From: Acidiferrobacteraceae bacterium
GTDB taxonomy: Bacteria; Pseudomonadota; Gammaproteobacteria; Acidiferrobacterales; SZUA-150
Direction: 5' to 3'
Assembly: GCA_003228915.1 (NCBI GenBank)
Contig: QIGL01000040.1
Location: forward strand, 1-62,499
DNA: 62,499 nt
The first letter of the stretch is position 1. The number at the start of each line of letters is the position of its first letter. Shown in pieces: positions 50,048 to 53,286 of the stretch. A program made the position numbers and the translations under genes. The notes below the pieces were generated by a model, which saw only the letters and a program-made list of their open reading frames with translations, made no database searches and had not been told where the DNA came from.

Positions 50048-50055
50048 AAATAATA
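50048..50055. repeat. Target site duplication, left copy
   Basis: AAATAATA directly abuts the left inverted repeat and recurs at 53279-53286 directly after the right one. An 8-bp duplication is within the range reported for IS1-family insertions. The region is AT-rich, but an exact match at both exact ends is unlikely to be chance. Confidence 0.8.
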
Positions 50056-50071
50056 GGTAGTGGGTCGGTTT
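50056..50071 (+). repeat. Left terminal inverted repeat of the element
   Basis: GGTAGTGGGTCGGTTT. It matches the right end at 15 of 16 positions, the mismatch being at position 12. A partial internal echo GGTAGTGGTAAA occurs at about 50112. Confidence 0.82.
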
Positions 50072-50173
50072 CCAAGTGATTGAATAATAAGTTAAATAAA
50101 ACAGAAAAAAGGTAGTGGTAAATTTAGCTAAAAAATATCATTTCTATATGTAAAAGTGGGAAAATTATCTAAA

Positions 50174-50485
50174 TTATTCCGAGATAGTTATGTTTCCTGT
50201 CTCGTAATCGAACTCAAAATTGAAAATACTAGTAGAAAGGCCGAGTCGACGACACAAATTGGCGGTATAAGGCAAAGAGATCAGAACGTCGTCTGGCTTG
50301 TTTGGCAGTACAACATGTAGCTCAACCCCTTCTACTTCTCGCTTAAGGATTCTAGGTTTTATTTTACCGAAGCTACCCTCAACCTCGTAATCAAGGGTAT
50401 GTAGTACGCAGCCGTTATCATCTTGGCAGCATACCCCTATAAAATGACCCAAAGAAGGAGGATTCCATCCAAATGGAAAGGCCAA
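50174..50485 (-). CDS. Small hypothetical protein, second gene of HicB-like pair
   Basis: 103 residues. The start is a TTG at 50485. AAGGAT lies 8 bases upstream and overlaps the TAA of the preceding gene, so translation is coupled. The sequence has paired aromatic/charged strands (GHFIGVCCQDDNGCVLHTLDYEVEG; VELHVVLPNKPDDVLISLP; FNFEFDYETGNITISE). I do not recognise a family, and it is not a HicA-like toxin (no dsRBD-type fold signature or catalytic His segment). As partner of a HicB-like protein it may be part of an addiction or regulatory pair carried by the transposon; this is inference from position. Confidence 0.7.
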   Translation of the reverse strand: MAFPFGWNPPSLGHFIGVCCQDDNGCVLHTLDYEVEGSFGKIKPRILKREVEGVELHVVLPNKPDDVLISLPYTANLCRRLGLSTSIFNFEFDYETGNITISE

Positions 50486-50495
50486 GACTTTATCC

Positions 50496-50819
50496 TTAAG
50501 CTACTCTTAATCCTGGATGAACGGGGAAAATACTATTGATCAAGTCTGAAATCCTGGACGGGACTCTTAATGGTTGTCGTGCTATAGGTTGAAGCTCTTG
50601 TGCATTCTCATACATTTCCCAGAAACATTTAGGAGCTGATTGTAGATCATCAAGTGTACGATCAGTTTCAGCCAAATAGCCTACTTCTGCCATTAAAGCG
50701 TACTCAAGATCATTCTGAGCCTCTTTAATAGTTTTGCCCTGCGCAGCAACATCATATTGAAGACATTGTGCCGTCCAGGCAACACCATCACTCATAAATA
50801 AAATATCTAGTTTGCTCAT
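50496..50819 (-). CDS. HicB-like small protein
   Basis: 107 residues with AAAGGAGAA before the ATG. The N-terminal half (FMSDGVAWTAQCLQYDVAAQGKTIKEAQNDLEYAL) is the partial RNase H-like fold typical of HicB-type proteins. The C-terminal part (LPIARQ-like basic/proline segment, RVPSRISDLINSIF) is not a recognisable ribbon-helix-helix or helix-turn-helix. Such stand-alone HicB-like proteins are common and of unknown role. It is first gene of a two-gene leftward unit within the mobile element. No hicA is adjacent. Confidence 0.78.
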   Translation of the reverse strand: MSKLDILFMSDGVAWTAQCLQYDVAAQGKTIKEAQNDLEYALMAEVGYLAETDRTLDDLQSAPKCFWEMYENAQELQPIARQPLRVPSRISDLINSIFPVHPGLRVA

Positions 50820-50949
50820 ATAATTCTCCTTTGAGGGGCAGCGATACTACTTCTTTTTCGCTTTGCTGTAAATTTACAATACCCCTAAATATAGTCCAAA
50901 TAAAGCAATTTACGTTCCAAATTCAGTATATATGTGGCAGAATCGTTAT

Positions 50950-51180
50950 ATGCCTAACCGCTCAAGCAAACGCCCTATAGACCTTAACAAACTGGCTGCC
51001 AGTATTGTAGGGGATGCCGTTGACCCCAAGGAGCCAGAGAACTCAGGCAAAGACCCTGCCGCTGTTGCGCTTGGTAGAAAAGGTGGGTTAAAGGGCGGCA
51101 AAGCAAGAGCTGCTAGCATGACTGCCTCACAAAGAAGTGAGGCCGCTAGAAAAGCAGCTAAAGTGCGTTGGAAAAAATAA
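50950..51180 (+). CDS. Small basic KGG-repeat protein
   Basis: 76 residues from the ATG at 50950 (MPNRSSKRPIDLNKLA, the usual beginning of these proteins); an upstream ATG at 50932 adds six residues. The C-terminal region has ALGRKGGLKGGKARAASM, then a basic helix SEAARKAAKVRWKK. This pattern recurs in small bacterial proteins often labelled histone-like or general-stress-like; binding to DNA or RNA is plausible but unproven. It is the only rightward passenger gene before the transposase and ends one base before the stop of the convergent 355-residue regulator gene. Confidence 0.78.
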   Translation: MPNRSSKRPIDLNKLAASIVGDAVDPKEPENSGKDPAAVALGRKGGLKGGKARAASMTASQRSEAARKAAKVRWKK

Positions 51181-51181
51181 A

Positions 51182-52249
51182 CTAAAGAAGTGAAATCTGA
51201 TCTTTGCTTTCATCGACCAAGTCAGCAGTTACACGAGAAATCATTCCGTCAATATCTGGCGTTGTACCAATAGCAACGATATGTATTTCAGGGTGTTCTC
51301 TATTAAATACTCTAAAAATCTCATCTGCAAAAGCCTGTCCTATTTTTGAGATCCCCTTGAAGTCTAAATAAACTTCTTTGAAACGATTTACTCTAGATAG
51401 CAATCTTTTAGCCTGTGAACGAGAAATTAGTTCTTCGCCTTCATACCTTAGAAGTTGAAGTGCCACGTGAGTACGAGTAAACCCATACTCATCTTGCTCT
51501 CTTTTGTAACTGTTTAGAATCTCAGTATCAGTTTGGGTAGCATCTTGTCTAATTAGCATTGACACTCTGGTGCCTTCAATATTATTTCTTTCTTCTACTT
51601 CTATAAGCCAGTCATCTTTTTTATTTACCCTGGCAAAATATAAGGAGTCTGAAAAAATAGAGAACTCATCAAACATTCTAGAGGTGAAGAAAATACCTTC
51701 ACCACTATGATTCAGTTTGTCTGTAGTAAGCTTACCTTTCGAGAGTTCTAAAAGAGCATGGCGAGGGTCTTCTAAATCAAATTCAGTTTGAATCTTGTTG
51801 AAAATCCCGACACCTGTATCCCATATGTTAATTTCTATATTAACAGAATTAATAGTTATAATAATTACTGAGAAGCTAGATTCAGAGTGATCAATCACGT
51901 TATTAAACATCTCGGTAAATCCATGATGACAAATATCAACTACGTTTTTGCTCGAATCTTTTAAAAGCGGTGCTATCTTGTTTCTCCACTCAACACCTTC
52001 TTGAAGGTCAGGTGTTACTTTCATGGGAAACGACTCATCAACAAAATTGCTGAGCTTATATGCTTTGTCCTTGGTAACTCCCGTTGAATTTAAAAGTCCC
52101 TGCTCCTGCAATCCCTGAAGGTGCTTACTTATTGCAGATCGAGAAACCTGAAAATGTTCAGCAGTAAGCTTTCCAATGTCTTTGGGATGTTTAGAGACAT
52201 TATTTAATATAAATGCTTGAATTTCTTTAGAATTTCTGCGTTTTGCCAT
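51182..52249 (-). CDS. Winged-helix / GHKL ATPase / STAS-like (DUF4325) regulator
   Basis: 355 residues with three parts. A winged helix-turn-helix at about 5-65 (AEHFQVSRSAISKHLQGLQEQGLL) comes first. A GHKL ATPase follows at about 85-235, with N-box EMFNNVIDHS, G1 box DTGVGI and G2 box GEGIFFT. The last is a STAS-like DUF4325 domain at about 265-345 (SRSQAKRLLSRVNRFKEVYL, IGQAFADEIFRVF). GHKL and STAS domains otherwise act as partner-switch kinase and antagonist in anti-sigma systems; here they are fused to a DNA-binding domain. AGGAC precedes the ATG. The gene faces an array of identical 11-bp boxes and the transposase promoter, suggesting ATP-dependent control of itself and of transposition. 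Confidence 0.85.
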   Translation of the reverse strand: MAKRRNSKEIQAFILNNVSKHPKDIGKLTAEHFQVSRSAISKHLQGLQEQGLLNSTGVTKDKAYKLSNFVDESFPMKVTPDLQEGVEWRNKIAPLLKDSSKNVVDICHHGFTEMFNNVIDHSESSFSVIIITINSVNIEINIWDTGVGIFNKIQTEFDLEDPRHALLELSKGKLTTDKLNHSGEGIFFTSRMFDEFSIFSDSLYFARVNKKDDWLIEVEERNNIEGTRVSMLIRQDATQTDTEILNSYKREQDEYGFTRTHVALQLLRYEGEELISRSQAKRLLSRVNRFKEVYLDFKGISKIGQAFADEIFRVFNREHPEIHIVAIGTTPDIDGMISRVTADLVDESKDQISLL

Positions 52250-52262
52250 TAAACTCTGTCCT

Positions 52263-52359
52263 ATTTACAACTTAACTGTTTAAGATTTACAACTTTTGTT
52301 GATTTATTCTACACTAAGTTATATATTATTTACAACTTATTTGAATTTATTTACAACTT
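52263..52359. promoter_or_regulatory. Array of four identical 11-bp boxes (ATTTACAACTT), probable operator
   Basis: ATTTACAACTT occurs at 52263-52273, 52285-52295, 52328-52338 and 52349-52359, all in one orientation. Start-to-start distances are 22, 43 and 21 bp, close to two, four and two helical turns. A degenerate unit, TTCTACACTAA, sits at 52307 in the 43-bp gap, 22 and 21 bp from its neighbours. The array fills the divergent region between the winged-helix regulator and the transposase and overlaps or abuts both predicted promoters. The winged helix of the adjacent gene is the obvious candidate binder. Confidence 0.75.
52306..52335 (-). promoter_or_regulatory. Predicted promoter of the regulator gene
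   Basis: On the minus strand, TTGTAA (52335-52330, inside the third 11-bp box) and TAGAAT (52311-52306) are separated by 18 bp. Two further boxes lie downstream between promoter and start codon, a layout expected for autorepression. Confidence 0.45.
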
Positions 52360-52363
52360 AAGG

Positions 52364-52392
52364 TTGACGATACTAAAGCGGTCTAGCATAAT
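52364..52392 (+). promoter_or_regulatory. Predicted transposase promoter
   Basis: TTGACG (52364-52369), a 17-bp spacer and CATAAT (52387-52392) are close to the sigma-70 consensus (five of six at each element). The start would fall at about 52399-52400, directly on the ATG of MNRLTNKE, implying a leaderless transposase message. The last 11-bp box ends 4 bp before the -35 element. Confidence 0.6.
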
Positions 52393-52399
52393 GGTCAGT

Positions 52400-53269
52400 A
52401 TGAACAGATTAACTAACAAAGAACGCGCACAGATTCTCAGGTCTTTAGTAGAGGGTAATTCCATCCGTGGAACTGTCAGAATCACCGGATTCGCTAAGAA
52501 TACCGTTTCTAAGCTCTTAGCTGACGTTGGTGCGGCCTGCCTGGATTATCAGGACAAAGCTCTGACTGGCTTATCTTGTGAGCGTATCCAGTGTGATGAA
52601 ATCTGGTCTTTCTGCTATTCCAAGGATAAGAATGTACCTGCTGATAAAAAGGGTGAGTTTGGCTATGGAGACGTGTGGACCTGGACTTCTATCTGCGCAG
52701 ACACAAAGCTTGTGCCTTGCTGGAGTCTAGGCAATAGGGACGCTGATACAGCTAATGAGTTCATGCAGAACCTGGCTGGCCGATTATCCAATAGAGTCCA
52801 GCTTACTACCGATGGTTTCAAAGCTTATTTAAAGGCTGTTAAAGGCGCGTTTGGTACTGAGATCGACTATGCTAAATTAATTAAAATCTATGGCCCTGCT
52901 CCAGAAGGCACAAAACGATACAGTCCTCCCAAGATTGTGGATGCTAAGTGCGGTGCTGTATTCGGCAATCCTGATAAAAGCCATATCTCTACCAGCTATG
53001 TAGAGAGACAGAATTTAACCATGAGAATGTCCATGCGCCGGTTCACCAGGCTGACTAATGCTTTCTCAAAAAAGGTGGAAAACTTGTCTCATGCCGTGAG
53101 CCTTCACTTCATGTATTACAATTTCTGTAGAGTTCATAAGTCAATTAAGACAACGCCAGCCATGGCGGCGGGTGTTGCAGCCCATGTTTGGACATTGGAA
53201 GAAGTGGCCGGATTGATGGATAATCCCACTTTGAGTCAAAAAGAGTTTGAAAATGCGAATTCAAACTGA
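52400..53269 (+). CDS. IS1-family DDE transposase
   Basis: 289 residues from ATG 52400. This start fits the usual MNRL beginning and the promoter geometry; in-frame ATG 52391 and TTG 52364 lie inside the promoter. An N-terminal helix-turn-helix (SIRGTVRITGFAKNTVSKLL) precedes the catalytic triad Asp66 (CDEIWSF), Asp138 (TTDGFKAY) and Glu202 (YVERQNLTMR), with the IS1-like C-terminal segment RFTRLTNAFSKKVENLSHAV. It is a single frame, without the insA/insB frameshift of classical IS1. All catalytic residues are intact and the stop codon lies in the right inverted repeat. Confidence 0.9.
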   Translation: MNRLTNKERAQILRSLVEGNSIRGTVRITGFAKNTVSKLLADVGAACLDYQDKALTGLSCERIQCDEIWSFCYSKDKNVPADKKGEFGYGDVWTWTSICADTKLVPCWSLGNRDADTANEFMQNLAGRLSNRVQLTTDGFKAYLKAVKGAFGTEIDYAKLIKIYGPAPEGTKRYSPPKIVDAKCGAVFGNPDKSHISTSYVERQNLTMRMSMRRFTRLTNAFSKKVENLSHAVSLHFMYYNFCRVHKSIKTTPAMAAGVAAHVWTLEEVAGLMDNPTLSQKEFENANSN

Positions 53270-53278
53270 CCCACTACC
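53263..53278 (-). repeat. Right terminal inverted repeat of the element
   Basis: Read inward from 53278 on the minus strand: GGTAGTGGGTCAGTTT. It contains the transposase stop codon (TGA, 53267-53269). Confidence 0.82.
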
Positions 53279-53286
53279 AAATAATA
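53279..53286. repeat. Target site duplication, right copy
   Basis: AAATAATA, identical to 50048-50055 and immediately adjacent to the right inverted repeat. Confidence 0.8.

Follow-up and report, generated by a model that had tools for sequence, protein, structure and literature searches.

Sequence comparison points to a conserved, probably autorepressive promoter-operator array of a single-chain winged helix-GHKL-STAS regulator carried by an IS1-like transposon

A tandem array of short direct repeats between the genes for a 355-residue regulator and a transposase is, as judged by sequence comparison, a conserved operator array belonging to the regulator. At 78 of 86 scored loci, which come from many phyla, the DNA directly 5' of the regulator start codon contains three or more similar boxes (consensus AAGGTTGACAATA) at a spacing of 21 or 22 bp. 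We consider it likely, with a probability of roughly 80%, that the array is a promoter-operator: the regulator would bind the boxes and repress its own gene in an ATP-switched manner, and would probably damp the transposase as well.

In the window, i.e. the whole stretch of 62,499 nucleotides analysed here, the 11-mer ATTTACAACTT is present in four exact copies when read on the plus strand, spaced by 22, 43 and 21 bp (Table 1). The four identical, equally oriented boxes described in an earlier note on this DNA are thus exact in every position, and the degenerate unit that it placed in the 43-bp gap was located as well. This unit agrees with the box at 8 of 13 positions and scores -3 bits as a box, below threshold. 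ATTTACAACTT forms the sole 11-mer array (at least three copies within 150 bp) of the window; when the 123-bp stretch was shuffled 20,000 times with dinucleotides preserved, some 11-mer reached at least four copies in only 12 shuffles. Across the whole 2.66-Mb genome, one further single copy was detected on another contig, and no pair at array spacing elsewhere.

Table 1. Positions in the window of the transposon features, the regulator and its boxes
Feature	Position	Strand	Basis or remark
Target site duplication AAATAATA, left copy	50048..50055	+	
Left terminal inverted repeat GGTAGTGGGTCGGTTT	50056..50071	+	
Passenger ORF, 103 aa	50174..50485	-	ORF list, Pfam search
Passenger ORF, 107 aa, HicB-like by eye only	50496..50819	-	no family match
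Second-best consensus box of the window, TAAATTTACAATA, in palindrome TGTAAATTTACA	50869..50881	+	box scan
Passenger ORF, 82 aa, lysine/alanine-rich	50932..51180	+	no Pfam or NCBIfam match
Regulator, 355 aa: winged helix (~1-68), SpoIIAB-like GHKL ATPase (68-240), STAS-like DUF4325 (255-345)	51182..52249	-	Pfam, AlphaFold, fold search
Box at -25 of regulator start	52263..52273	-	gene strand TAAGTTGTAAATA; exact repeat, family PWM score
Box at -47	52285..52295	-	exact repeat, family PWM
Degenerate unit at -68, gene strand TTAGTGTAGAATA	52305..52317	-	holds predicted regulator -10 TAGAAT
Box at -90	52328..52338	-	exact repeat; contains predicted regulator -35 TTGTAA
Box at -111	52349..52359	-	exact repeat, family PWM
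Family-consensus box AAGGTTGACGATA, opposite orientation to the four	52360..52372	+	13.6 bits; contains transposase -35
Predicted transposase promoter TTGACG-17-CATAAT	52364..52392	+	promoter prediction
IS1-like DDE transposase, 289 aa	52400..53269	+	domain searches; relatives annotated IS1 family transposase
Right terminal inverted repeat GGTAGTGGGTCAGTTT	53263..53278	-	
Target site duplication AAATAATA, right copy	53279..53286	+	

The comparison drew on the best 80 of 370 candidate relatives of the 355-residue protein from GTDB genomes, a sample that leans towards the closest relatives and is not phylogenetically independent; among kin genomes, 16 of 96 gave homologues. With an EM-derived box matrix, the three-box score at 78 of the 86 loci was higher than in any of 390 control windows from the same loci. 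Spacings of 21 bp were counted in 51 cases and of 22 bp in 78, the order 21-then-22 being the commonest (44/78 loci). A test that dispenses with the matrix, run on 101 upstream regions, gave an identity of 23.8/30 at a period of 21-22 bp as compared to 14.4-15.4 for non-overlapping periods. In distant IMG/VR relatives (e.g. L153 and L162), the boxes differ in sequence but the period is still about 22 bp; by the box model, some eight homologues (L026, L034, L018 and L019 among them) have no array. These figures bear out the proposal that the boxes make up an operator array, all on one side of the helix, and that this array is tied to the neighbouring winged-helix gene. In a genome-wide pattern search of 12 genomes, strict box pairs were present at the regulator promoter in 11; the sole other site was one inverted-repeat match in G089, G041 had no strict pair in its entire genome, and the reversed pair pattern found no match in the 12 genomes. 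An operon partner as an explanation was dropped, since no neighbour gene of the regulator is conserved among the 80+ loci.

The array is itself a promoter, because any one box also serves as a -35 (TTGACA) and the one after it as a -10. Indeed, at 69 of the 78 loci the best sigma-70 promoter has its -35 in box n and its -10 in box n+1. As TTGACAAT comprises a -35 plus a -10-like hexamer with two bases between them, its repetition every 21-22 bp creates spacers of 17-18 bp. For the window, the earlier note had seen a regulator promoter under the array with its -35 in one box, and the prediction agrees: TTGTAA (52335-52330) lies inside a box and TAGAAT (52311-52306) inside the degenerate unit. 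The unit at -68 has drifted to TAGAAT since, in the promoter overlay, the next box serves as the -10; L085, whose boxes share the window's offsets (-111, -90, -68, -47 and -25), is intact at -68. The boxes thus occupy both -35 and -10 of the regulator promoter, which fits autoregulation and hence the idea of a protein tuning its own synthesis. Moreover, a protein bound to the array must get in the way of RNA polymerase, which argues for autorepression. That is, the regulator probably represses its own gene via the array, with good support from the comparison and the repressing sign read from the geometry. Plasmid iterons, too, are direct repeats that recur after some two turns of the helix and face the same side of the DNA; calling the array iteron-like is apt as regards spacing, but not as regards replication, since neither a replication initiator nor an origin was found in the element by ORFs and domain searches, and the array is a promoter.

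A box that contains TTGACA plus part of a -10 will, when repeated with a 21-bp period, inevitably make promoters, and the boxes could therefore be sites of a host factor or nothing more than a row of promoter-like hexamers to which no regulator is dedicated. We judge this very unlikely. Conservation of the box reaches past the hexamers (AAGG upstream, ATA downstream), and strict pairs are nearly unique to the regulator promoter in each genome. In addition, the period is kept across phyla while box sequences diverge, e.g. into a AAGTTGTAAAT type and a AAGGTTGACAAT type; the window's own boxes are of the former type, differ from the family consensus and score 8.3 bits. This divergence follows the recognition helix: with overall divergence removed, segment 33-44 ranked first of 164 protein windows in tracking the boxes, and again first of 82 windows when all three boxes and 50 representatives were used, whereas with single boxes or box subsets its rank varied from 1 to 10 of 82. 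This window-based test was run after a negative one, i.e. per-column mutual information between box and protein, in which the HTH supplied 4 of the 40 top pairs versus 4.3 expected and was hence not enriched. The predicted covariation of box and recognition helix was therefore recovered at the level of segments and not of single columns, and because the column-level test was negative, we regard the evidence that the box sequence is tied more tightly to the recognition helix than to the remainder of the protein as moderate.

The AlphaFold model of the regulator (pLDDT 89) has SpoIIAB as its best fold match (Z 14.4, 2.5 A over 133 residues), and the C-terminal domain alone (pLDDT 90) matches STAS folds such as RsbS and SpoIIAA with Z about 7. 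The N box and G boxes (N117, D144, G146, G148, G183 and G185) are invariant in 62 sequences. The regulator thus shares the GHKL and STAS folds of SpoIIAB/SpoIIAA and RsbW/RsbV, but differs from them by fusion with a DNA-binding winged helix, and no sigma-factor partner was found. Unlike SpoIIAA, it has no Ser or Thr at the position of S58, whose equivalent by motif and structural range is the invariant G304-Q305-A306; a canonical phospho-switch is therefore unlikely. No role in defence was assigned, as a PADLOC search yielded just weak matches, through the winged helix. Likewise, a plasmid or phage origin is not indicated: the regulator was not found in PLSDB plasmids or INPHARED phages, though relatives are encoded on 20 IMG/VR contigs. 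At L019/L023 (G093:C72), a second, DUF4325-only ORF of ~94 codons is present ~0.9 kb downstream of the full regulator.

The regulator of the window resides in an IS1-like element of 3,223 bp (50056-53278) with inverted repeats and an 8-bp target duplication. Its ends (GGTAGTGGGTC[G/A]GTTT at 50056 and 53278) start with GGTAGTG, and the empty site is seen in a same-genus genome (G001), where ~330 bp separate the flanking methyltransferase and metK. The transposase matches PF03400 above cut-off; its match to NF033558 (E 9.8e-16, 58 bits) stays under the NCBIfam IS1 cut-off of 100 bits. Thus, a DDE transposase, GGTAGTG ends and the 8-bp duplication are as in the IS1 family, whereas a single-ORF transposase and a divergent, exchangeable regulator module set this element apart. 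Slightly inward of the left end, an additional GGTAGTGG motif (50111-50118) may be what is left of a former terminus. By eye, the 82-aa passenger resembles small proteins of sister transposons (L105 ORF 106-414 and L142 'histone H1').

Elements with regulator and transposase, each with own repeats and duplications, were also detected in L027 and L085 (CCAGCCCC; TAAGGCCA), and divergent regulator-transposase pairs in L054, L087 and L088. Relatives that have the gene and the transposase and lack the array, a case raised earlier, were not encountered among five divergent pairs plus L027. Terminal repeats with a target duplication as expected for the IS1 family (8-9 bp) were found in the window, L027, L085, L105, L142 and L145. 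Sister elements of the same transposase family carry other regulators, namely XRE-M78 fusions in L142 and L144 and a P63C protein in L105, and in sisters of this kind (L105, L142, L144, L145) the array of the regulator was not found. Since transposons with the same transposase and another regulator have no array, the boxes belong to the regulator. That they are instead transposase-binding sites, forming a subterminal repeat array of the transposon, would fit with their position next to the transposase start and with the tandem sub-terminal sites known in other transposons. However, the array lies in the interior of the element, ~0.9 kb from the nearest end, most relatives have it without any transposase nearby, and it is absent next to transposases that are 54-61% identical and have IS1-like ends but another regulator, which renders transposase-binding sites extremely improbable.

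As to the sister elements themselves, L105 is an IS1-like transposon with perfect terminal inverted repeats and an 8-bp duplication, in which a P63C-domain gene takes the place of the regulator. Its transposase is preceded by four ATGCWWGCAT repeats, spaced by 25, 31 and 25 bp (L105 1377-1471), i.e. a different regulator comes with its own operator array. L142 (1296-4665) and L145 (1055-5278) are plasmid-borne IS1-like transposons with perfect ends, 8-bp duplications and XRE-type regulators; the XRE-M78 protein of L142 has weak HigA similarity and is encoded near an annotated histone H1 gene. Downstream of the regulator in L044, L050, L051 and L054, one-sided IS1-like ends (GGTAGTG...) suggest more decayed or contig-cut transposons, some of them in Nitrospira relatives.

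The array of the window ends 4 bp before the transposase -35 (TTGACG, from 52364), precisely as had been noted. This -35 is contained in the highest-scoring consensus box of the whole window (52360-52372, 13.6 bits), and the transposases of L142 and L144 likewise have a TTGAC hexamer at roughly this distance upstream. Neither this opposite-strand box nor the transposon boundaries figured in the earlier note. With its promoter adjoining the array and its -35 in a consensus box, the transposase is a plausible further target of the regulator. Control of a passenger gene through box 50869-50881 is plausible, too; this box lies 50 bp upstream of the 107-aa ORF, a promoter placement made by eye, and reads TTTACA-17-TAGTAT on the minus strand. 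Co-control of both is made plausible by the fact that the two top consensus boxes of the window (52360-52372 and 50869-50881) are both inside the element. Nevertheless, control of the transposase would at best be a side function, given that the array of most relatives has no transposase in its vicinity. Alternatively, ATP-loaded oligomers could recruit polymerase from boxes upstream of the transposase -35, where the four boxes of the window do lie, and affect the regulator promoter mildly. Such activation appears unlikely: in other regulator-transposase pairs the boxes are, by eye, nearer to the transposase start codon, and in nearly all relatives they sit on the regulator -35 and -10, which is a repressing geometry.

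In the open-access literature searched for DUF4325 and the wHTH-GHKL-STAS architecture, neither the present single-chain protein nor its operator was found, CapK/CapS being the only functional parallel. This system consists of two proteins, HTH-STAS-GHKL and STAS-wHTH, in which the CapS-type wHTH-STAS repressor is released by an ssDNA-activated GHKL kinase (EMBO J 2026, PMC13373217). It sits by immune operons, controls the adjacent operon, binds TTAA palindromes and autoregulates through sites that overlap with its promoter, with cooperative binding at one of them (PMC13373217). The wHTH, GHKL and STAS domains are common to both systems, and by analogy our regulator family may work like CapKS; the shared architecture is judged from the description in that paper, CapS not being among the fold-search matches listed. 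However, CapK/CapS uses a kinase gene and a repressor gene, whereas here a single 355-aa chain combines wHTH, GHKL and STAS. Its phospho-acceptor serine on STAS helix 2 is replaced by the invariant G304-Q305-A306 at the equivalent position, its palindromic TTAA operators contrast with tandem direct boxes every 21-22 bp, and its place beside immune operons with a regulator that has no conserved neighbour. By the features tested, i.e. fused chain, missing phospho-serine and tandem array, the regulator family is not a member of CapK/CapS.

Taken together, we propose that the winged helix of the regulator binds the boxes, which would place the bound protomers on one DNA face because the boxes recur every 21-22 bp. 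Binding would cover the promoter, with TTGACA in one box and the -10 in the next at 17-18 bp, and thereby repress the regulator gene. The SpoIIAB-like GHKL and SpoIIAA-like STAS domains most likely bring about dimers or oligomers of the protein, and ATP binding or turnover most likely switches DNA binding on or off in answer to a signal. In the IS1-like transposon, the same regulator probably damps the transposase as well, as suggested by a promoter that abuts the array and has its -35 in a consensus box on the opposite strand. What the analysis shows directly is the array with its conservation and period, its overlap with the promoter, the boundaries of the transposon, the folds of the domains and the tracking of box and recognition helix; binding, repression, cooperativity, ATP gating and the effect on transposition are what we infer from these.

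A more far-reaching possibility, which we regard as doubtful, is that of a self-contained one-gene switch across many phyla, whose sole detectable DNA target is its own array and which was repeatedly captured by IS1-like transposons, there controlling the transposase and perhaps a passenger (box 50869). As in most hosts the regulator seems to have no further gene under its control, it would then act at the protein level, e.g. by binding or phosphorylating a host factor in the manner of SpoIIAB, with control of transcription just setting its dose. For DUF4325, a domain without assigned function, the conserved array provides a ready assay made up of a short promoter fragment and one protein, which suits the question whether ATP gates cooperative DNA binding. 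Moreover, IS1-like transposons are seen here with regulators that can be exchanged, which is of relevance to the way in which small elements keep their transposase in check.
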